Positions 18,462 to 31,365 of a stretch of 36,345 nt of DNA are shown piece by piece. A program made the translations under genes and the position numbers. The stretch spans positions 1 through 36,345 of the forward strand of contig JARGFV010000014.1 in the NCBI GenBank assembly GCA_029210545.1, given 5' to 3'. This stretch comes from a bacterium. Lineage in GTDB: Bacteria > BMS3Abin14. The notes beneath the pieces are model-generated. The model did no database searches. It saw only the letters and a program-made list of their open reading frames with translations, and was not told the origin of the DNA. Within the stretch, counting starts at the first letter, position 1, and the number at the start of each line of letters is the position of its first letter.

Positions 18462-21275
18462 ATGAAAATCAACCGTCGAACCTTCCTCAAAACGAGCGGC
18501 TGTATGCTCGCTTCCATCCTTTCGGGCGGCAAGGCCTTTCCCCTGGGGGCAGCCCCGGCTGCCAGGGTCCTGTTCGGCCGAGAGGTTGCAAGCAGATGTC
18601 CACTGTGCTCCCTGGGGTGCGGACTCATCTATCGATCCCGGGGCCAGGGCCGCTGGCACGTGGAAGGAGATCCGGACTGTCCCATCGCGGAAGGGTCGCT
18701 GTGTGCCCGGGGCAGTGTTCTTACCACCTCCATCAATGACAGCCCGGCCGGGGTCACTCCGCTTTACAGGCCGCCCGGTTCAAACCGGTGGAAGGAGATC
18801 GGCTGGGAAGAGGCGGTTAAGCTGACCGCCAGACGTATCAAGGACCTGAGAGATCGGGAACTCGGGTACGTCAACGGTGACGGGGGAAAGCCGGTCAACC
18901 GTTTCGACGGGCTCGGGGTTCTGGCGGGCGGCAGCCTGACAAACGAGGAAGCGTACACCGTATCCAAGCTGTTCCGCGCCCTCGGCGTGACAAACATGGA
19001 CACGACGGTCCGGTCGAGCCACGCCATGGCGCTTCTCGGACTCATGGATTCCCTCGGGTTCCCCGGAGCGACCCATCCGGCCCCCCAGGTTGTCCACAGT
19101 GACGTGGTGGTCCTCGTGGGCTGCAACCCCGGCCTGACGGCTCCTCCCCTGGCCAGGGCCCTGAACCGGGTTCGACAGCGGAGGGGGACGGTCATCGTCA
19201 TTGATCCCCGACGTTCCGAAACCGTTAAAGGGGAGGATCTCTGGCTCCAGCTGCGCCCTGGAACCGACAACGCCGTACTCGGCGCCATGCTCAGCTGGAT
19301 CCTCACCAACGCCGACATAAGCAAGGGCGATCTCATCGAGTACACCGACGCGTCGTATATCTCTCTCAGCGAGGTGATGGGTCGATACGAGAGATACACG
19401 ACGGGCAAATACCAGAACTGGAACATCGTTGACGAGTCCCTTCAGGAGCCCTACTCCATATTCCAGCGGATGAAGGAGAACTTTGAAAGGTACGATATCC
19501 GGAAGGTGTCCAATATCGCCGGGGTGGACGTAGGGCTTTTACGCCGTGCCTGCTCGCTCCTCGCACGCACCACCAGCGCCGATTTTTCGGCTACCTTTGT
19601 GTTCGGGTCCGGTGCGCTTTCAAGCCCTTCGGGACCTGGCAAGGTCCGGATGGCCCTGGCCATCCAGGCTCTTCTCGGAAACCTGGACAAAAAAGGGGGC
19701 GGAATCGTTCTGCCGGTGGGGGCAGGGAATGCCCAGGGGGTCTGCGACATGGGACTGCTTGCGCCTTACCTGCCGGGTTATCTGCCGTTGCCGCGGCAAG
19801 GTGACAACCCCGACGGAGAAGGGTCCGGGGAAGCGTTGGAGGCGCTGCTGCGTTCATGGTATCCGGGCCAGACATCCCAAAGAGCGAAAAGCTACCTGCC
19901 CGTACTGGAACCTGACGAGCATCCAACCATCAGCACCATCCTCGAGGGGATGGAAGATGAGAGGGTGAGGGCTCTCATCACCATCGGCGCTGATCCCGCG
20001 GGAAGCGTTACCGACAGCTCCTCCATTTTACCGGCCCTCGACAATCTCGATCTCCTGGTCGTGATGGATTCCACTCTCAACCGGACCAGCCTGTTCTGGA
20101 GCCTTGAACCAGGCAGGGAAACCTCCATCAAGACCGAAGTTCTTTTTATCCCTATCCAGGCACCCGTGCAAAAGAACGGGTCCATGACCGACGGGGGCCG
20201 CAGGGTCCGGAGGGTTACGCCGCCCGAGGGCAGTGAAGATACCTCCCCGGGCCTGCTCCGGTTCGTTGTGCAGCTCGGCAACTCCATCCAAACCAATTAC
20301 AGCCATGAAGGGGGAGTCCTTCCCGGTCCCGTGAAAGATCTGGATTGGCCCCTGGAGCGGCTTCCGGAGGAGGTGGCAGCGGAGATCAACGGTTCAAGGT
20401 CGGCCTTGTCAGGAGATATCCTCCTTCCTCCCGGTAAAGATTGGCAGAGTTCAGACCGCTGCCCGAATCACCTTTACAGGGGATGGGTGGAGGCCGGCCG
20501 CTGGAAGGCCTCTGACAGGGATCGCTCTGATCCGTACGCTCTGGGCCTGTATGAAAGGTGGGGATGGTTCTGGCCCTGGGGTATTGCGGACCCGTTCTCA
20601 TGGATAATCCGTCGAAAAAGTGCGAGGGGTGTCTACCTGAGGTGGCACGGACAGGAGACAAGACCCTTTGCCTCCATTGATGTGCTGCCTATCCGTCCCC
20701 ATTTGCCGGTGAAGTTCTGGAAACAGGTTCAGCAGGGCAGCCCGTTCCCGGAGCACTATGAGCCTTTCCACAGCCCTCTGTCCGACTTCCTGACAGGGGG
20801 GCGCTCCAATCCAAACATGGTACCCAGGCATGAGGGAAAAGATCAGTGGGGGTACCTTTCGAGGCGGCCTGGGGACATCCTGACCACCTATCCCGTCATT
20901 ATCACCTTGCACAGGACAGCGAATATCATGGGCACAGGCGGCGTCACCGCCGGTTGGGATGCCCTGAGGGAACTGGGGACAGGCAGGATCGTGGAGATCG
21001 GTGTGGAGCTGGCCGATGGAATGGAGTTGATAACCGGGGACCTTGTCAGGATCATTTCCCCCCATAATGAAAAGGGTGTCGAGGCCCGTGTCCACGTCAC
21101 GCGGAGAGTCGGCGTGTTCACGGACAACGGCAAACAGTATCATGTGGCGTCCGTCACCCTTTTCGGTGAGAACGGTCCCGGTATCAACACACTGACCCCG
21201 CCGGCCTTTGACCGCATCAGCGGGGGCATGGAGATGAAGGTGTTTATGGGGAGGATCGAAAAAGATGACGGCTGA
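18462..21275 (+). CDS. Formate dehydrogenase-like molybdopterin oxidoreductase, Ser at the Sec position
   Basis: 937-residue bis-MGD enzyme paralogous to the Sec-containing alpha subunit downstream. A Tat signal (NRRTFLKTSG) implies folded export. An N-terminal [4Fe-4S] set is C-P-L-C-S-L-G-C, with the fourth Cys in GSLCARG. Aligning by the FDH-N landmark, the Sec-His pair of the classic enzyme corresponds to Ser186-His187 (RSSHAMALL, codon AGC at 19017-19019). The catalytic Sec/Cys is therefore replaced while the adjacent His is kept. The C-terminal molydopterin-dinucleotide-binding domain is present (TLHRTANIMGTGG). No electron-transfer partner is encoded directly beside it. It may be a divergent oxidoreductase, a non-catalytic partner or an enzyme with serine-ligated metal. 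Confidence 0.82.
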   Translation: MKINRRTFLKTSGCMLASILSGGKAFPLGAAPAARVLFGREVASRCPLCSLGCGLIYRSRGQGRWHVEGDPDCPIAEGSLCARGSVLTTSINDSPAGVTPLYRPPGSNRWKEIGWEEAVKLTARRIKDLRDRELGYVNGDGGKPVNRFDGLGVLAGGSLTNEEAYTVSKLFRALGVTNMDTTVRSSHAMALLGLMDSLGFPGATHPAPQVVHSDVVVLVGCNPGLTAPPLARALNRVRQRRGTVIVIDPRRSETVKGEDLWLQLRPGTDNAVLGAMLSWILTNADISKGDLIEYTDASYISLSEVMGRYERYTTGKYQNWNIVDESLQEPYSIFQRMKENFERYDIRKVSNIAGVDVGLLRRACSLLARTTSADFSATFVFGSGALSSPSGPGKVRMALAIQALLGNLDKKGGGIVLPVGAGNAQGVCDMGLLAPYLPGYLPLPRQGDNPDGEGSGEALEALLRSWYPGQTSQRAKSYLPVLEPDEHPTISTILEGMEDERVRALITIGADPAGSVTDSSSILPALDNLDLLVVMDSTLNRTSLFWSLEPGRETSIKTEVLFIPIQAPVQKNGSMTDGGRRVRRVTPPEGSEDTSPGLLRFVVQLGNSIQTNYSHEGGVLPGPVKDLDWPLERLPEEVAAEINGSRSALSGDILLPPGKDWQSSDRCPNHLYRGWVEAGRWKASDRDRSDPYALGLYERWGWFWPWGIADPFSWIIRRKSARGVYLRWHGQETRPFASIDVLPIRPHLPVKFWKQVQQGSPFPEHYEPFHSPLSDFLTGGRSNPNMVPRHEGKDQWGYLSRRPGDILTTYPVIITLHRTANIMGTGGVTAGWDALRELGTGRIVEIGVELADGMELITGDLVRIISPHNEKGVEARVHVTRRVGVFTDNGKQYHVASVTLFGENGPGINTLTPPAFDRISGGMEMKVFMGRIEKDDG

Positions 21276-21496: not shown

Positions 21497-21531
21497 GCCC
21501 TGTTGCATAACGCGCAACAATGGAGATTCCA

Positions 21532-22458
21532 ATGTCTGAAAGCACTATCAGGAACAGGTCATTTAAAGATGCCCTCTTTTCTGGGTCCATGGACGCGGAG
21601 GGTATGGAAGACGTTCTTCAGCTTTACCGGGATCTTTTCCCCGTGGTCAGTGTCGGTGCAGGCGAGGGTGCCGATACCAGGGAACTGGGGGAAGAAGAGA
21701 TCCAGATGCGGCTCGACGAAGGGTTCACACTTTTAGAGCCGGTCGATATCCTGCCCGATACCGGGGAATTGGCAAAAAGAGCCGAAGAGGTGGTGAAGAT
21801 CCTTGTCGGTCATTCCGAAGACGCCGAGACTGTTACTTTGACCATGTCTTCCCTCCTTGAAGATCCGGATGCCTTCCATGGGCTTGCCGCTGTCTGGCTC
21901 AAGGAGGGAGATGCCGTCCTGAGGGAAAAGCTGGGGGACCTGGAAGGGGTAAACCCCGAGGCAGTGATGTTTGTCCTGTTTAACTCTCTCAAAGGGTCCT
22001 TCCTCGAGGCTGCCGCCAGGTTCTCCCATTTCGATACCGGTAAATGGGAGCAGGGACGATGCCCTGTCTGCGGTGGAGAACCGGCGGCCGCCTATACCAT
22101 GGGAGAGGGCGGGAAAAGGCATCTCATCTGTCACCGCTGCGAGACTCACTGGCGGTTCAGGCGCCTTACCTGCCCTTACTGCGGCCACGAGAGCCCGGAG
22201 GAGTCCGGCTATCTGTTTTCAGAAGACCCGGAATACAGGTTCCTGACCGGCGCCGTCTGCGGTGAATGCCGCTCCTACATAAAGAGCTGGCGCGTGGAGG
22301 GGGACGATCCCGGTGATCTGCACCCTGAGGTGGAGGATCTGAAGACCCCCGGATTCGACAGGGCCGTGGAAGGGGAAAGCTACCGCAGGGGAGCGCCCAA
22401 TATCTTCGGCGTCCGGGTCGGGACCGCGGAGGATAAAGGTCGCCCTGAAAGAGTGTGA
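21532..22458 (+). CDS. fdhE: Formate dehydrogenase accessory protein FdhE
   Basis: Cytoplasmic maturation factor needed for active periplasmic formate dehydrogenases; it is a rubredoxin-like iron protein. The C-terminal half carries the paired cysteine motifs RCPVCGGEPAAAYTM, RCETHWRFRRLTCPYCGHES and CGECRSYIK, the family signature. The N-terminal half (RNRSFKDALFSG onward) is the helical FdhE domain. Start set at 21532 (MSESTIRNRS) because tggaga lies seven to ten bases upstream; an ATG at 21520 would place that element inside the coding region. Lying between the two FDH catalytic-subunit genes, it should serve the Sec enzyme and possibly the Ser paralogue. Confidence 0.88.
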   Translation: MSESTIRNRSFKDALFSGSMDAEGMEDVLQLYRDLFPVVSVGAGEGADTRELGEEEIQMRLDEGFTLLEPVDILPDTGELAKRAEEVVKILVGHSEDAETVTLTMSSLLEDPDAFHGLAAVWLKEGDAVLREKLGDLEGVNPEAVMFVLFNSLKGSFLEAAARFSHFDTGKWEQGRCPVCGGEPAAAYTMGEGGKRHLICHRCETHWRFRRLTCPYCGHESPEESGYLFSEDPEYRFLTGAVCGECRSYIKSWRVEGDDPGDLHPEVEDLKTPGFDRAVEGESYRRGAPNIFGVRVGTAEDKGRPERV

Positions 22459-22811
22459 TTTTTATTTCAATCGCCCAGTTTACCCTTGAAAAATGAAGCT
22501 TCGTAGGATATGTTCATGTTTCATATGCATGCTGTGTCCCGGGGTGGGCGCTGTATGCATCCAATCCGGCATCATTCAAGATGCCCGTTTTGAGGGGTAG
22601 GACGAGTTTAAGATCCGGTTGCATTCAATTTGTAACCTCGCGGGAAGTCTCTTCGATATTTTACGGGCAGTCATGCCAATCGCACTACAGGCGTGATGAC
22701 TCCCCCGTCGGGATGCGCACTCTGCGCACATCCTGTTTGATGGGTTTTTCAAGCCTATCACCACATACGGGCAGAACAGCCCGCCATAATATCTGACGAA
22801 AAAGTCAGTTA
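22459..22811. other. Intergenic region ahead of the structured leader
   Basis: 353 bp with no recognised gene and, unusually here, no clear heptamer array. A small hairpin (cgggcagaacagcccg, about 22768-22783) and a -10-like cataat (22785-22790) sit just before the leader; the latter would place a transcription start close to 22797, but no convincing -35 was found. Confidence 0.4.
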
Positions 22812-22905
22812 GGGGCCTTCCGATCCCGTCACATCCCTCCGGGATGGCCGGGACGATAGGGTGCCGGGAGCAATCCCGCCGCCTGCCGATTGCGCAAAGG
22901 AAGCC
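22812..22905 (+). ncRNA. Candidate molybdenum-cofactor (Moco) riboswitch in the fdh leader
   Basis: A multi-stem RNA can be drawn. P1 pairs cttcc (22817-22821) with ggaag (22899-22903), extended by gg/cc past a bulge. A stem cgtc/gacg (22827-22830/22852-22855) encloses CATCCC/GGGATG (22832-22837/22841-22846). A further hairpin CGGGA-GCAA-TCCCG (22865-22878) carries a GNRA tetraloop. Agg/cct (22858-22860/22882-22884) closes above it. The 3' side of P1 is also the 5' arm of the following terminator, so folding of P1 and termination exclude each other. Moco riboswitches precede molybdoenzyme genes and use a GNRA-loop contact, which fits, but the assignment is from memory of the class, not a model search. 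Confidence 0.5.
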
Positions 22906-22937
22906 ATGACATGCTCATGGCTTCCTTTTTGTATTTT
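22899..22937 (+). terminator. Intrinsic terminator in the fdh leader
   Basis: An 11-bp perfect stem, GGAAGCCATGA (22899-22909) and TCATGGCTTCC (22915-22925), with loop CATGC and a following T-rich tract (ttttt, then gtatttttt). It lies 110 bp upstream of the alpha-subunit ATG on the sense strand, so it must be a conditional terminator or attenuator for the operon. Confidence 0.9.
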
Positions 22938-23047
22938 TTAGAAGAAAAAACCGCAAAGGGGGGAGGAGGTGAAAGAGCCGAATTATCAGCGGACTGGTTG
23001 TCCACCGTCTTAACCATAACCCGTAAGAAAGGAAGGTGTAGACAAGG

Positions 23048-26000
23048 ATGAACGTAACCAGGAGAGATTTTCTTAAGATCTCCGGTGCGACCATGTCTGG
23101 CGCCGCGCTCGGTGGCCTCGGCCTCCGGGGTACAGCGATGGCGGGAACCCGTACGGGTAACGTCGCCATCAAGTACGCCAAGGAGTCGACCACCGTCTGC
23201 CCTTACTGTGCCGTGGGCTGCGGCATGATCGTCAGTGCCCACGCCGGTAAGGTAGTGAATATTGAGGGAGATCCCGATCATCCGATCAACGAGGGAGCCC
23301 TCTGTTCCAAGGCGCAGGCAGTCAGACAGGTATCGGAGAACCCCTGGCGCATTACCAAGCCTCTGTACCGCGCGCCGCGCAGCGGTGAGTGGAAAGAGGT
23401 CTCTTGGGACTGGGCCTTCAACGAGATCGCAAAACGTGTGAAGAAAAGCCGTGACGCCGGTTTCACCAAGGTCAACGACAAGGGCCAGGTGGTGAACCGG
23501 AACGACGGGATGGCTTCCGTCGGTTCCGCGGCCCTCGACAACGAGGAATGCTATGTTCTCCAGAAGTGGCTTCGCGCCCTCGGCCTGGTGTATATCGAGC
23601 ACCAGGCGCGCATATGACACAGCGCAACCGTAGCGGCTCTGGCAGAGTCGTTTGGAAGGGGCGCGATGACGAACCACTGGATCGACCTCCGGAACTCGGA
23701 TGTCATCATGGTAGCTGGTTCGAACGCCGCCGAGAACCACCCCATCAGCTTCAGATGGGTCATGAAGGCCAAGGAGCAGGGCGCCAAGCTGCTTAGTTTG
23801 GACCCGCGGTTCACCAGAACCTCCTCGAAGGCCGACATCTACGCTCCGATCAGGTCCGGTTCCGACATCGCCTGGCTGGGCGGCATGATCAAGTACATCC
23901 TCGACAACGAGCTGTACCACAAGAAATATGTCGAGCTGTACACCAACGCTCCGTTCCTCGTGAACAAGGATTTCAAGATGCCGGGCGACCTGGACGGCGT
24001 GTTCTCGGGGTACGATCCCAAGAAACGGTCCTATGACAAGAAGGCCTGGGCCTTCCAGACCGACGCCGACGGTGTCGTGAAGAAGGATCCGGAGATGAAG
24101 GACCCGATGTGTGTCCTCCAGCTCCTCAAGAAGCACTACTCCAGGTACACCCTTGACAAGGTCTCGGCCATCAGCGGGACCCCCAAGGAAAAACTCCTCG
24201 AGGTGTACAAGACTTATGCCTCCACGGGCAAGCCCAACCGGACAGGCACCATCATGTACGCCATGGGCTGGACCCAGCACACCGTTGGAGTCCAGAACAT
24301 CCGGGCGATGGCCATGATCCAGCTGCTTCTCGGAAACATCGGGATGGCCGGCGGCGGCGTCAACGCCCTGCGTGGTGAGTCCAACGTCCAGGGGTCCACG
24401 GACCACTGCCTGCTGTTCCACATCCTGCCCGGGTACCTGGGCACCCCCAACGCGGCCCAGGCGACTTTCGCACAGTATAACGAGGCGAAAACGCCCAAAA
24501 CGAAAGAGCCCTATTCGGCCAACTGGTGGAGTAACTACCCGAAGTACAGCGCCAGCCTCCTCAGGGCCCACTTCGGCCTGAGCGCGGATCTCGGAAAGCA
24601 GTACACCTGGCTGCCCAAGCTCGACGTAGGCCAGAACGCCTCATGGCTGATGCTCTTCGACGAGATGCTCAAGGGCAAATTCACGGGCTTCTTCGCCTGG
24701 GGGATGAACCCCGCCTGTTCGGGCGCCAACTCGAACAAGACGCGTGCGGCTCTCGGCAAACTGGACTGGATGGTCAACGTCAACCTGTTCGACAACGAGA
24801 CCGGCTCGTTCTGGCGCGGTCCCGGCATGGACCCCGGTCAGATCAAGACCGAGGTGTTCTTCCTGCCGTGCGCCATGTCCTTCGAGAAGGAAGGGTCCAT
24901 CACCAACTCCGGCCGCTGGGCCCAGTGGCGCTACGCCGCTGTCAAGCCGCCGGCACCCACCGACGCGGACCTCGTCAACGAGCTCCAGTGGCGTGTGAGG
25001 AAGCTGTATGAGGAGCAGGGCGGAGTGTTCCCCGATCCGATCCTCAACCTCGCCTGGGATTACGGCCCCAAGGGCCCCGACGGCAAGACCACCCACATGG
25101 ACGCACACCTCATCGCCAAGGAGATCAACGGCTACTACCTTGAGGACATCAAGGACGACAAGGGCAACGTCATCGCCAAAAAGGGTGAACTGGTGGTTTC
25201 CTTTGCCAAGCTAATGGCCAATGGGAAGACCTCCTCGGGCAACTGGCTGTACAGCCAGTCCTACAACGAGAGCGGCAACAACATGGCCCGGCGAGGCAAG
25301 TCCGACCCCACCGGAACCGGCCTGTACAACGGCTGGTCCTGGTGCTGGCCCGTCAACCGCCGGATCATCTACAACCGCGCCTCCGTGGACGAGTACGGGA
25401 GGCCCTTTGCTCCCCACAAGCCGGTTGTCTACTGGAACGGCGCCAAGTGGGTCGGCGACGTCCCGGACGGAGGATGGCCGCCCCTGCGCAAGCCCAACGG
25501 CACCTGGAACGAAGCGACGAAACTTGCCTACATCATGAAGCCCCACGGCGTTTCGCACCTCTACGGTCCCGGTCTCGCGGAAGGCCCCTTCCCGGAGCAC
25601 TACGAGCCTCTGGAGTGTCCCATCGAGCGCAACCTCATGAACCCCCAGAGGATCAACCCGGTAGCGAAGCTCTTCACCGGGAAGATGGACCAGTTCCTCA
25701 ACTGTGACGACAGGTATCCTATTGTCGCGACGACCTACCGGGTCAGCGAGCACTGGCAGACCGGTGTCCTGACAAGGTGGTTGCCGTGGCAGGCCGAGTT
25801 GATGCCGGCGAGCTTCCTTGAGATGAGCCAGGAACTCGCCAAGGAGAAGGGCATCAAGAACGGAGACAAGGTCGTCGTCTCCTCGGCTCGCGGCAAAGTT
25901 GACGCCGTCGCGGTCGTCACGATACGGTTCAAACCCTTCCAGGTAGCAGGTGCTACCGTCCATCAGGTGGGTCTCCCCTGGCACTTCGGTTGGGCAACAA

Positions 26001-26149
26001 CGGCAGAGTACGACGTCATGGCTAACGGGAAGCCTTACAGCAACCCGACCTATGGCGATGCGGCCAACCTGCTTACGCCCAACATAGGGGACGCCAATAC
26101 CATGATCCCAGAGACGAAGGCCTTCATGGTCAGCGTCGAGAAGAAATAG
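23048..26149 (+). CDS. fdnG: Formate dehydrogenase-N alpha subunit, selenoprotein (UGA read as Sec)
   Basis: Catalytic subunit oxidising formate to CO2 in the periplasm at a Mo- or W-bis-MGD centre. It is one gene of 1033 residues, although an in-frame TGA at 23615-23617 splits it into two open frames. Reading the TGA as Sec190 gives QARI-U-HSATVAALAESFGR, then GAMTNHW, the exact FdnG/FdoG active-site context. A Tat signal (TRRDFLKISG) opens the protein, followed by a [4Fe-4S] motif (CPYCAVGCGM, with the fourth Cys in GALCSKA). The length matches FdnG (about 1015). A ribosome binding site lies in gaaaggaaggtg before the ATG. It is first in a three-gene operon with beta and gamma subunits, behind a leader with a terminator. 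Confidence 0.97.
23615..23617 (+). other. Selenocysteine codon (UGA)
   Basis: Codon 190 of the alpha-subunit frame. The flanking residues before and after it match FDH-N on both sides with no frame change, and selA and selB follow 4 kb downstream. Recoding is the only reading that restores the active site. Confidence 0.95.
23618..23657 (+). promoter_or_regulatory. Bacterial SECIS element
   Basis: Directly after the UGA, the RNA can form an apical hairpin from cggctct (23634-23640) and agagtcg (23644-23650) with loop ggc; a G-U pair and an A-U pair can lengthen it to about 23632-23652. A short lower cc/gg pairing (23628-23629/23654-23655) is possible. The hairpin begins about 14-16 bases after the UGA, the distance expected for SelB-binding bacterial SECIS hairpins. 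Confidence 0.75.
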
Positions 26150-26166: not shown

Positions 26167-26994
26167 GTGGCTGAAAAAATAATCGTAATCGATACTTCCA
26201 AATGCACTGCCTGCCGCGGCTGCCAGACAGCCTGCAAGCAGTGGAACTCTCTGTCCGCAGTCAAGACAGAAAATTACGGCAGCTACGAGAACCCCCCGGA
26301 TCTCTCCTTTAACACCTACACCAAGATTCGCTTCAACGAGGTGGAAAAAGGTGGAGAACTGAGTTGGTTCTTTGGCCAGCACCGGTGCATGCACTGTTCA
26401 GACGCCGGATGCATGAAGGCCTGCCCGGTCCCCGGAGCCATCACCCGCGACGCCAGCGGCGCCGTCGTGATCAACCAGGGCCTGTGCACGGGCTGCAAGT
26501 ACTGCGTGTTCGGCTGCCCCTTCGACGTTCCGCGTTACGACGCCATGAACGCTGAAGGGTTCGGAGTCGACAAGGCGTTCAAGTGCACCATGTGCTTCGA
26601 TCGCCAGGAGATGGGAATGGAGCCCGCCTGTACGAAGACCTGTAACACCGATGCCCTGAGCTTCACCAGCAGGTCGAAGCTCGAGACCATCAAGGCCGAC
26701 GCTGCCCAGCGCGGTCTCACGGTCTACGATGGCGGGTCACTGAACACCGGCGTGGTGTTCCTGCTGGAGGATAAGGCCGATCAGTACGGTCTTCCCGTCA
26801 GTCCGGCGATACCTACCCCAACGTTCCTGTGGCGCACGGTCATGAAACCACTTGGCGTTGTCGGGTTCCTCGCAGCCATCTTTGCCGTTATCGCGCACTA
26901 TGTCATCATTGGTCCCAAGGACATCGAGGAAGAGGACGGAGGAGCACCACCATCTCCGCCCAAGTCACCGATGGGGGAAGGGGGTGAGTACTGA
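26167..26994 (+). CDS. fdnH: Formate dehydrogenase beta subunit (four [4Fe-4S] clusters)
   Basis: Electron-transfer subunit linking the alpha subunit to the cytochrome b subunit. Four ferredoxin-type cysteine groups are visible: CTACRGCQTACKQ; CMHCSDAGCMKACP; CTGCKYCVFGCPFDVP; and CTMCFDRQEM with ACTKTC. A single C-terminal membrane helix (PLGVVGFLAAIFAVIAHYVI) anchors it, as in FdnH. 275 residues is slightly shorter than E. coli FdnH. A GTG start is supported by a near-perfect Shine-Dalgarno (aagggggtga) six bases upstream. Its stop shares one base with the next ATG (TGATG), indicating coupling. Confidence 0.95.
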   Translation: MAEKIIVIDTSKCTACRGCQTACKQWNSLSAVKTENYGSYENPPDLSFNTYTKIRFNEVEKGGELSWFFGQHRCMHCSDAGCMKACPVPGAITRDASGAVVINQGLCTGCKYCVFGCPFDVPRYDAMNAEGFGVDKAFKCTMCFDRQEMGMEPACTKTCNTDALSFTSRSKLETIKADAAQRGLTVYDGGSLNTGVVFLLEDKADQYGLPVSPAIPTPTFLWRTVMKPLGVVGFLAAIFAVIAHYVIIGPKDIEEEDGGAPPSPPKSPMGEGGEY

Positions 26995-27593
26995 TGTCTC
27001 ATCATCTCGTCAAACGATTCTCCTCCGGTGAGCGGTTCATTCACTGGGTCCACATGATCTCCTTCATCACCCTGGCCCTGACCGGTCTCGGGCTGTACGC
27101 CAGGTCGTTTTTCGGCCTGACCGGCCTGTTCGGCGGGATCGACTCTTCACGGGTGATCCATCACTACACCGGACTGGTGTTCGCGGTCACGTCCCTTGCG
27201 GTCTTCTTCCAGTGGTTCAAGGATTTCTCGGCCCCTGGTGAGGATTCCCTCGCAGACGTGATCAAGGGCTACCTGGATCACAGCTTCCACCCCCAGTCAG
27301 GCAAGATAAATTTCGGCCAGAAGCTCCTTGGCTGGTTCTCTTTCCTGTTCGGAGTGGGAATGATCGTAACCGGTCTTGCCATGTGGTTCCCCTTCACGCT
27401 GGGACGCGGTCTGCAGCAGTGGATGTACTTCCTGCACAACTTCGTGTTCATATGCTTCATGCTGCTGATGATCGTTCACGTTTACCTGAGTACCACAGGT
27501 AACCCAGGCACCTGGAGAGCCATGTCCAGGGGCACGGTAACCAAGGGCTGGGCCAAGAAGCATCATCCCAAATGGGATGGTGAAGAGGCCTAA
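26994..27593 (+). CDS. fdnI: Formate dehydrogenase gamma subunit, cytochrome b556
   Basis: Integral membrane dihaem cytochrome that passes electrons from the beta subunit to quinone. Four membrane segments are evident (HWVHMISFITLALTGLGLYA; VIHHYTGLVFAVTSLAVFF; LGWFSFLFGVGMIVTGLAMW; YFLHNFVFICFMLLMIVHVY) with histidines positioned as haem ligands (HWVH, HHYTG, LHNF, VHVY). 199 residues is close to FdnI (217). It ends the operon; a strong terminator follows 19 bp later. Confidence 0.93.
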   Translation: MSHHLVKRFSSGERFIHWVHMISFITLALTGLGLYARSFFGLTGLFGGIDSSRVIHHYTGLVFAVTSLAVFFQWFKDFSAPGEDSLADVIKGYLDHSFHPQSGKINFGQKLLGWFSFLFGVGMIVTGLAMWFPFTLGRGLQQWMYFLHNFVFICFMLLMIVHVYLSTTGNPGTWRAMSRGTVTKGWAKKHHPKWDGEEA

Positions 27594-27795: not shown

Positions 27796-27828
27796 TACTA
27801 GGAACTAGGCACTGGGTACGCTTTCCTT

Positions 27829-27834
27829 TATAAT
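27829..27834 (+). promoter_or_regulatory. Candidate -10 element for selA
   Basis: Perfect TATAAT ten bases before the selA ATG; a weak -35 (taggca) lies 17 bp upstream. If used, the mRNA would start within a few bases of the ATG, and indeed no Shine-Dalgarno is visible there. Confidence 0.4.
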
Positions 27835-27843
27835 CCCCTGGTT

Positions 27844-29262
27844 ATGTCCAAATTTCCTCCCGACAAGAGTCTTCTTCGCCATCTGCCCAAGGTCGATTCG
27901 GTCCTGGAGCACCCAGCCGTTAAAAAACTTTGCGGCTGCGTGCCTGAACTGATCATTAAAGATGGGGTCCGACGGGAGGTTGACCATCTGAGGCACAGGA
28001 TGCGTGAAGGCGATATCACTTCAGTAAAATACCTGGCACTGGATCGTGTGGCAGCCGGTGCCGTCCACAGGATCCGGGAGATGGACCGGCCCAGGCTTCG
28101 GAAGGTCATCAACGCCACCGGTGTCGTGATCCATACCAACCTTGGACGAAGTCCCCTGCCCGAGGAAGCCATCCGACAGATCGGGCTGGCCGCCAGGGGC
28201 TACTCCAACCTGGAGTACGACATCGAAGGTGGAAAGCGCGGCTCCAGGGACGACCTGGTGGAAGAGCTCCTGTGCCGTCTCACCGGCGCTCAGGCCGCCA
28301 CCGTGGTCAACAACAACGCGGCCGCTGTCATGCTCGTCCTGCGGACCCTGGCGGCGGGTCGTTCGGCCGTCGTCTCCAGGGGGGAACTCGTGGAGATCGG
28401 AGGCAGTTTCCGGATCCCCGACGTCATGGAGGCATCGGGAGCGAAACTGGCCGAGGTGGGCACCACCAACAGGACCCGCATCGACGACTACCGCAAGGGC
28501 ATCACCGGCGAAACGGCTCTTCTGCTCAAGGTCCACACCAGCAACTACCGGATCGTGGGGTTCGCCGAGGAGGCGTCCGTCACCGAACTGGTTGCCCTTG
28601 GCCGTGAGAAGAAGATCCCGGTTGCCGTGGACCTGGGAAGCGGGTGCCTGGTGGACCTGAGGAATCTGGGTCTCAAATACAGCGAACCCACGGTGGACGA
28701 GGTCCTCTCCCAGGGGGCCGACGTGGTGACCTTCTCGGGGGACAAGCTCCTGGGGGGACCCCAGGCCGGTATCATCGTCGGAAGCGGCAGGGCCATGGAA
28801 GCGATCAAGAAGAACCCGATGAAGAGGGCCCTGAGGGTGGGCAAACTGACTCTTTCCGCTCTCGAGGCGGTCCTCAAGGCATATCTTGACCCTGCCACCG
28901 CGGTTCACCAAATCCCGGTTCTTCGCATGATCTCCACTTCAAAGGAGAAGATCGCCCAAAGAGCCCGGCGTTTTGCCGGACGCCTCGCGGATCTCCCGAT
29001 GCGGTCTTCGACCGTTTTATCCGTCTCCCGGGTGGGCGGCGGTTCCCTTCCCCTGGAGGAACTGCCCACCATGCTTTTGGCCCTGGAACCGGACGGCATC
29101 TCGGCACAGGAGCTGGAGGGACGCCTGCGCATGGCTGATCCGCCGGTGGTGGGACGGATCGTGGATGATAAGCTGTGTCTGGATCTGAGGACCGTGGCAT
29201 CAAGTGAACTGGGGGAACTGGAGAGAGCGATCAGGGGAGCGCTCCATGATGTTCAACCGTAA
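27844..29262 (+). CDS. selA: L-seryl-tRNA(Sec) selenium transferase SelA
   Basis: PLP enzyme converting seryl-tRNA(Sec) to selenocysteinyl-tRNA(Sec) with selenophosphate. The PLP lysine is K301 in FSGDKLLGGPQAG, the counterpart of E. coli K295. Other landmarks are VINATGVVIHTNLGRSPLP, YSNLEYDIEGGKRGSRD, VVNNNAAAVMLVL and HTSNYRIVGF. 472 residues is typical. It sits directly upstream of selB and behind the selenoprotein operon it serves. selD and selC are not in this window. Confidence 0.97.
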   Translation: MSKFPPDKSLLRHLPKVDSVLEHPAVKKLCGCVPELIIKDGVRREVDHLRHRMREGDITSVKYLALDRVAAGAVHRIREMDRPRLRKVINATGVVIHTNLGRSPLPEEAIRQIGLAARGYSNLEYDIEGGKRGSRDDLVEELLCRLTGAQAATVVNNNAAAVMLVLRTLAAGRSAVVSRGELVEIGGSFRIPDVMEASGAKLAEVGTTNRTRIDDYRKGITGETALLLKVHTSNYRIVGFAEEASVTELVALGREKKIPVAVDLGSGCLVDLRNLGLKYSEPTVDEVLSQGADVVTFSGDKLLGGPQAGIIVGSGRAMEAIKKNPMKRALRVGKLTLSALEAVLKAYLDPATAVHQIPVLRMISTSKEKIAQRARRFAGRLADLPMRSSTVLSVSRVGGGSLPLEELPTMLLALEPDGISAQELEGRLRMADPPVVGRIVDDKLCLDLRTVASSELGELERAIRGALHDVQP

Positions 29263-29427: not shown

Positions 29428-31365
29428 TTGACCACCCAGGGCCACATCATAATCGGCACGGCCGGGCACATCGACCACGGCAAGACATCGTTGGTCAAGC
29501 TTTTAACCGGCGTCGACACCGACCGTCTCAAGGAGGAGAAGGAAAGGGGGATCACTATCGAACTCGGGTTCGCCCCGGTCACCCTCCCTTCAGGTGCGCG
29601 TCTCGGTCTCGTCGATGTGCCCGGACACGAGCGATTCATCAAGAACATGGTCGCCGGCGCCACCGGCATCGACATGGTGCTCCTTGTCATTGCCGCCGAC
29701 GAGGGGGTGATGCCCCAGACAAGGGAACACCTGGATATCTGCCAGCTTCTCGGTGTGAAGATCGGGGTCGTCGCCCTGACAAAGGCCGACATGGTGGACG
29801 CGGAGTGGCTGGAGATGGTCACTGAAGATGTGCGTGACTACCTTTCCGGGTCCTTTCTCGAAGGAGCTTCCATCGTCCCCTGCTCTTCCGTTACCCGACA
29901 GGGAAGGGAGGATCTCCTCGCTGCCGTGGACGAGGCCGCAGCAAGGGTCTCCTCCCGCACCAGCGAGGGCATTTTCCGCCTTCCGGTGGACCGCGTGTTC
30001 ACCATGAAAGGGTTCGGTACAGTGGTCACCGGAACTCTCATATCGGGGGCAGTTTCTTCCGGGCAGGATGTGGTTTTCCTGCCGGGGGAGAAAAAGGCCA
30101 GACTGAGAGGGATGCAGGTCCACGGTGAGCTGGTTGACAAGAGCTCAGCGGGGACAAGGACCGCCCTCAACCTCCAGGGGATCGACAAGGACGAGATCCA
30201 GCGGGGCCAGACGGCAGCGGTAGAAGGCGTGCTCAGGTCCACCCTCATGCTGGACGCGAAGATCACGCTGCTGGGATCAGCCCCCCGTCCCCTCAAGAAC
30301 AGGGATCGGCTGCGCCTGCACCTTTTCACCTCCGAGGTAATGACCAGGGTGACCATCCTGGAAGGTGAAGTCATCGAACCAGGGTCGGAAGGACTGGTGC
30401 AGCTGCGCCTCGAAGAACCGGCCATCGCGCTGCCCGGAGACCGCTTTGTCGTCCGGAGCTACTCCCCCATGACCACCATCGGTGGCGGGCACATTATCGA
30501 CGTCCTTCCCAGAAAACATCGCCGTAACCGGCAGCCGGTCATCGACCTCCTGCTTCGTCTCGACCAGGGCAGCAGGGAGGAACGTGTCCTGGCGTTCCTT
30601 ACCGAAGCGGCGGACAATGGTCTCTGGGCCGTTGACCTGGCCCTCAGGAACAGTATGGAGGCCTCCGCCATGGGAAGCCTCCTGGACCAGCTGGCGGGGG
30701 AGGGCAAGGTGGTTGTCGCCGCCGCAGGGGAGGGGACCCTCGTCTACTCGGCCGGGTCATTCGGGCAGCTTCAGGAGCGTTTCGTAAGAGCCCTGGAGAA
30801 GTTCCACGAGTCCAACCCGGCGAAGAGCGGGATCGGCCGGGAAGAACTCCGGATGAGGGTGGCCCGGCAGATGCCCGACCGGCCCTACCGGAACCTCCTG
30901 TCTGCCCTGGAATCGAGAAATAAGATCGCCCTTGACGGAGATAACGTGAGGCTTTTTGCCCATCAGGCGACGCTGTCGCCCGACCAGGAAAAGGTGGCGG
31001 CGAAGGTAGTAAAAACCCTCACCGCGAACGGGGTCTCCGCCCCGTTCCTCACGGACCTGGCCGAGGAGCTGAAACTTCCGGTTCCAGATCTCAAGGCGGT
31101 CATGAACCTCCTGGCCGAGCGGGGTGACCTTGTCCGGATAAAGGACGATTACTTCATCATACCCCAGGCCCACACCGGTCTCATGAACGGTGTCGAAGCC
31201 TGGTACGCGTCCAATACCGAGATGGCTCTTGCCGATTTCCGCGGGATCGTGAACACGACCAGGAAGTGGATGATCCCGCTCCTGGAGTACCTGGACCGGA
31301 CCCAGGTCACCATGCGCAAGGGGGATGTGAGGATCAAGAGGGGGGCTGTGAGGCGTGAAGCATAG
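29428..31365 (+). CDS. selB: Selenocysteine-specific elongation factor SelB
   Basis: GTPase that carries selenocysteinyl-tRNA(Sec) to ribosomes paused at a UGA next to a SECIS hairpin. G1 GHIDHGKTS is at residues 13-21, G2 lies in the [10 protein letters not shown] segment, G3 DVPGHE is at 63-68, and G4 TKAD is at 118-121. EF-Tu-like beta-barrels follow, then C-terminal winged-helix repeats for SECIS binding ([20 protein letters not shown] and the final [20 protein letters not shown]). 645 residues, standard. A TTG start is chosen because ggaggt lies nine bases upstream and no ATG is in frame. The last residues and the stop lie in a heptamer array. Confidence 0.96.

Follow-up and report, generated by a model that had tools for sequence, protein, structure and literature searches.

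A P3-less Moco RNA whose P1 stem overlaps a terminator upstream of a selenoprotein formate dehydrogenase operon: a likely ON riboswitch of the tungsten branch

The formate dehydrogenase locus

The window analysed here, a stretch of 36,345 nt (contig JARGFV010000014.1, assembly GCA_029210545.1), encodes a formate dehydrogenase operon preceded by a structured leader. The first gene, fdhA (23048–26149, +), specifies the alpha subunit and contains a selenocysteine UGA at 23615–23617 (codon 190), consistent with a preliminary description, made from the sequence alone, which had named a selenoprotein formate dehydrogenase as the target of the leader. It is followed by fdhB (26167–26994, +), encoding an iron-sulfur subunit for which FDH-beta was the best family at a score under the curated cut-off, and by fdhC (26994–27593, +), encoding a cytochrome b gamma subunit. 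Upstream of the leader lies a gene for an fdhE-like maturation protein (21520–22458, +), which also scored under the curated cut-off and is assigned with the aid of synteny in relatives. The nearest solved relatives of FdhA are the tungsten or tungsten/Sec formate dehydrogenases of Desulfovibrio (D. gigas, 1h0h, 1312 bits; D. vulgaris, 6sdr, 1290 bits), compared with 954 bits for E. coli Fdh-N.

Genes for selenocysteine synthase (selA, 27844–29262, +) and the selenocysteine elongation factor (selB, 29428–31365, +) adjoin the operon, and a tRNA-Sec gene is present in the genome. A hairpin is located 3' of the fdhA UGA and does not exceed in strength what is expected by chance at this composition. 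Between fdhC and selA lie 250 nt that contain a promoter-like site, and selA and selB may be transcribed separately from fdhABC. The earlier suggestion that the operon ties together two scarce resources holds for the enzyme itself, which requires both the cofactor and selenocysteine. The promoter-like sequence (10/12) is situated at 27806–27834, directly before selA. As to transcription of the leader, a sigma-54 pattern scan of the 350 nt upstream returned nothing, and the only sigma-70-like promoter, 300 nt upstream, is at chance level.

Elsewhere in the window, positions 18462–21275 encode a formate-dehydrogenase-like molybdopterin protein with Ser-Ser-His in place of the Ile-Sec-His of FdhA, the C-terminal part of which occurs upstream of fdhE in several relatives. 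In three MAGs labelled Geobacteraceae/Desulfuromonadaceae, tRNA-Sec was observed close upstream of fdhA (L061 3461–3554, L062 3572–3665 and L066 3558–3651), accompanied by a Moco RNA in two of them.

Aptamer fold and conservation

A cmscan search matched RF01055 (Moco RNA; Molybdenum/Tungsten riboswitch) at 22806–22918 (+) with 40.3 bits (E 2.2e-6) against a gathering threshold of 36 bits, and this was the only Rfam family to reach its gathering threshold within the window. The aptamer core (22814–22905, +), composed of P1, P2, P4 and P5, scored 101.3 bits with a model (R2) built from 14 aptamers, a value to be read in the knowledge that R2 was built in part from that same sequence. P1 is formed by a 5' strand CUUCC (22817–22821), a sequence that recurs within the terminator 3' arm, and a 3' strand GGAAG (22899–22903), which is common to the terminator 5' arm. 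P2 (22824–22853) includes a small triloop hairpin, P4 (22859–22884) is capped by a GCAA tetraloop of the GNRA type (22870–22873), and P5 (22885–22895) consists of two pairs, G-C and C-G, rather than the C-G and C-G of classic Moco RNA. P3 is absent. The GAAA tetraloop on P4 and its receptor in P2, which are typical but not universal in the family, are missing: by inspection, no CCUAAG-type receptor was found in P2 of the window aptamer. The automated receptor pattern is crude and gave a small number of doubtful positives among relatives.

Membership of the family is indicated by the score, by the P1-P2-P4-P5 arrangement around the conserved junction with covariation, and by the Mo/W gene context. 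The preliminary description, which had placed a candidate Moco riboswitch with a multi-stem fold and a GNRA-capped hairpin at 22812–22937, was therefore borne out as to family and fold and, to within a few bases, as to span. Since the folding energy of the aptamer alone is ordinary (z –1.15) and uninformative, it is the comparative evidence that carries the aptamer.

The comparison covered 12 genomes from the phylum of the window, which all belong to one family. The sub-type was detected in 12/12 of these, and in 11/12 it is situated between fdhE and fdhA; the copy in genome G005 is cut by a contig end and, by reading, adjoins an fdhE-like gene. Alignment of 11 family members showed pairing in 95% of cells and nine pairs changed on both sides, with P1 and P5 invariant. 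When two FdhA leaders from outside the family (L094 and L058) and an AOR (aldehyde:ferredoxin oxidoreductase) leader (L044) were added to give the set of 14 aptamers, 14/31 pairs were changed on both sides, with 94.5% of cells paired. The covariation score was 0.342, compared with 0.160 for shuffles, none of 500 shuffles reached that value, and the signal collapsed when the partner strand was slid. Within this set, both sides of a P1 pair changed once, and U-A gave way to U-G several times in P1. This covariation, the comparison that had been proposed for orthologous leaders, supports the predicted aptamer fold.

The RF01055 score exceeds the cut-off by only ~4 bits, which would be compatible with a chance match beside a terminator that simply belongs to the gene upstream. 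That explanation was rejected and has a negligible probability, in view of conservation in all 12 genomes, which is accompanied by covariation; the end of the fdhE-like gene, moreover, lies ~350 nt upstream.

Terminator overlap and direction of control

The aptamer runs into an intrinsic terminator with a U-rich tail (22896–22938, +), consisting of a 14 bp stem (22896–22928), a loop of 5 and the tail TTGTATTTTT. The GGAAG that pairs with CUUCC in P1 is also located inside the terminator 5' arm, so that five bases are common to both pairings and the two are mutually exclusive. The closing-stem overlap seen in the preliminary description was thereby recovered. Together, leader and terminator fold better than 200/200 shuffles (z –3.66). 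The full leader folds to the terminator state, which is expected without ligand and carries no information on the ligand, whereas P1 forms when the RNA is cut before the terminator 3' arm. The RNAalifold consensus likewise favours the terminator state, and P1 is hence not displayed in it. When P1 was forced, mean pairing of the terminator stem in the window fell from 0.98 to 0.41, the residual pairing being that of the distal half, which has no adjacent U run.

Among aptamers of this sub-type, the P1 5' strand, the P1 3' strand and the terminator 3' arm were shown to co-vary: CUUCC/GGAAG/CUUCC in the window corresponds to GGCUUC/GAAGCC/GGCUUC in L126, GGUUCC/GGGGCC/GGCCUC in L044 and GCUUCC/GGGGGU/GCUCCC in L094. 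The P1 3' strand variants GGAAGC, GAAGCC, GGGGCC, GGAGCC and GGGGGU still complement both partners. Maintenance of this three-way match despite sequence drift is what a choice between P1 and terminator requires. In L035 and L042, the terminator finder took a shorter stem in the P1-forcing test, and the automated overlap test gives full overlap.

The moaA leaders of the same genomes contain the classic aptamer form, and in 6/6 of those tested the terminator lies downstream and has no P1 bases in common. Blocking the P1 5' strand lowered terminator pairing from 0.84 to 0.04, from 0.77 to 0.08 and from 0.95 to 0.51 in three of these leaders (L043, L047 and L049), a modelled response that fits an OFF switch; little change was seen in the remaining 3/6. 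In the genome of the window itself, moaA is likewise preceded by a Moco RNA, the second in that genome, which is P3-less and classic in type and has a separate downstream terminator (L003 4017–4145, G000:C125, minus).

A P1 3' strand that is shared with the 5' arm of an intrinsic terminator, and conserved as such, is the arrangement of a transcriptional ON riboswitch, and conservation of this overlap across lineages supports the earlier proposal that P1 precludes the terminator and that ligand switches expression on. The best-studied Moco RNA represses, and Moco RNAs bearing terminators are known, so that an OFF switch, in which the cofactor promotes termination via a more complex rearrangement, has to be considered for the fdhA leaders as well. 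It is very unlikely, as the five bases common to P1 and the terminator prevent the two from coexisting, the fdhA leaders show no visible antiterminator pairing, and the OFF-type layout is found instead in the moaA leaders.

We therefore consider it likely that the leader is a transcriptional ON riboswitch of the Moco RNA family, belonging to the tungsten (P3-less) branch; both direct ligand binding and the direction of control in the cell are what we infer from this architecture. According to the model, nascent GGAAG would pair with the downstream CUUCC arm when cofactor is absent, the terminator would form and RNA polymerase would stop before fdhA. Binding of a tungsten pyranopterin cofactor to the P1-P2-P4-P5 core would hold GGAAG in P1, the terminator would be unable to form fully, and fdhABC, possibly with selAB, would be transcribed. 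At the moaA copy of the same organism, the cofactor would switch its own synthesis off. The simplest account is probably one in which binding of the cofactor represses moaA and activates fdhA.

Direct binding of Moco to the E. coli Moco RNA has not been demonstrated in vitro, Moco being unstable, and the family as a whole is without such a demonstration. This would leave room for a sensor protein, responding to the cofactor or to the metal, that binds the leader in place of the free cofactor, a reading to which we assign a low probability, given that a large multi-helix core is conserved across phyla (the argument of Regulski et al. 2008); nor did a linked gene for an RNA-binding protein come to notice.

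The GC-type sub-type and its cofactor

Model R2 was searched in the phylum of the window, in a second phylum (54 genomes) and in 395 genomes of a third phylum. Ninety aptamers were sorted by their P5 pair into a GC-type (n=43), defined by an inverted pair (GC/GC, not CC/GG), and a CC-type (n=47). Aptamers with a GC-type P5 had a GNRA loop other than GAAA in at least 33/43 cases, while those with a CC-type P5 had a GAAA loop in 40/47. With the family of the window counted once, FdhA, AOR or an AOR-type ferredoxin was encoded downstream of 28/33 GC-type compared with 6/47 CC-type aptamers; these counts, like those that follow, represent an association and not independent tests, as R2 itself contributed to collecting the set, whose members are related. 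The automated test for overlap between P1 and the terminator was positive for 26/33 GC-type (again counting the family once) and 10/47 CC-type aptamers, the latter ten being partly noise because the test accepts weak stems; it also missed L127, in which the overlap is visible by eye. Beyond the phylum of the window, the sub-type was mostly located before FdhA or AOR genes, usually with the P1/terminator overlap. Exceptions were seen on both sides: a classic aptamer precedes FdhA in L098 and L066 and AOR in L007 and L050, and transporter-like genes follow GC-type aptamers with a GAAA loop in L146 and L153. At locus L171 (1501–1793), an AOR gene is preceded by two tandem GC-type aptamers, and each of them has a terminator of its own that overlaps P1.

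The preliminary description had named Moco as the ligand. The family assignment stands, but the ligand is probably not Moco itself; a tungsten counterpart of that cofactor is probably what the window riboswitch senses. Moco RNAs are divided by the presence of P3, the P3-less forms being linked to the tungsten cofactor and tracking the tungsten use of organisms (Regulski 2008, PMC2408646). Both RF01055 copies of the genome, in the fdhA and moaA leaders, are without P3. Also encoded in the genome are two AORs, a TupA-like protein for tungstate binding, with 3lr1 as its nearest solved relative, and a TupB-like permease, for which the Tup family was the best specific match; both Tup-like bit scores were under the NCBIfam curated cut-offs, and TupA had no other family match. 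No ModA was recognised among the PF13531 matches of the genome, which comprise TupA and two proteins resembling iron-type binding proteins, as judged by reading the sequences. The P3-less form, the Tup-like and AOR genes, the absence of a recognised ModA and the similarity of FdhA to tungsten formate dehydrogenases make the tungsten reading better supported than the molybdenum one, and it is from these features that we infer the ligand.

The same RNA could operate by the same ON mechanism with Moco, or with both cofactors without discrimination, as its ligand. Formate dehydrogenases of the D. vulgaris type can hold Mo or W, and the enzyme class can use either metal. The tested family member senses Moco, and the E. 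coli RNA did not switch specificity when P3 was deleted (PMC2408646). Against this stand the genomic features listed above and the occurrence of the sub-type before AOR, a tungsten enzyme, and we regard a Moco ligand as improbable, if less so than the protein-sensor and OFF-switch readings. Contrary to the rule that P3 marks molybdenum, a P3 hairpin is apparent in two aptamers that precede the gene for a TupA-like tungstate binder (L149 1501–1609, L151 1501–1609, minus).

Extending the tungsten reading to the sub-type, it is possible, though we propose it only tentatively, that P5-inverted, mostly receptor-less aptamers constitute a distinct tungsten-cofactor class that chiefly switches tungsten enzymes on, with classic forms of the same genomes turning off cofactor synthesis and uptake, so that two variants of a single aptamer would serve a split regulon. 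One cofactor is suggested to control supply and demand in opposite directions. Tungsten-cofactor sensing by P3-less Moco RNAs has rested on correlation since 2008, and the sub-type offers compact candidates (~92 nt plus terminator) with a simple transcriptional read-out before tungsten-requiring enzymes. The present Rfam model scores the GC-type form near or under its cut-off, as exemplified by the orthologue L033 (33.9 bits). Four GCAA-loop RNAs without receptor are mentioned in the main text of PMC2408646, as are terminators in some members; neither there nor in passages of other papers was a description found of a group with inverted P5 or of ON control.

In comparison with known systems, the window RNA has in common with RF01055 (Regulski et al. 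2008) the P1-P2-P4-P5 fold, the conserved junction (CCGA, GAUAGGG and AAAGG) and a position upstream of a pterin-enzyme operon, but differs in its lack of P3, its inverted P5, a GCAA loop that lacks the customary receptor in P2 and a terminator directly overlapping P1. It shares the absence of P3, and an organism with tungsten transport and enzyme genes, with the branch named 'Tuco' or 'Wco' in PMC2408646 and PMC9481103. P3-less members before moaA or tupA in the present sample mostly have a CC/GG P5, a GAAA loop and usually a receptor, features not found in the sub-type of the window. Its FdhA is closest to the Desulfovibrio W/Sec enzymes, from which the locus differs by a cytochrome b subunit gene and adjoining selA and selB. 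Competition between P1 and a terminator is an established principle of transcriptional ON riboswitches, of which the adenine riboswitch is an example: here, too, the 3' strand of P1 doubles as the 5' arm of the terminator, although the adenine-type aptamer and its ligand are unrelated to those of the window.
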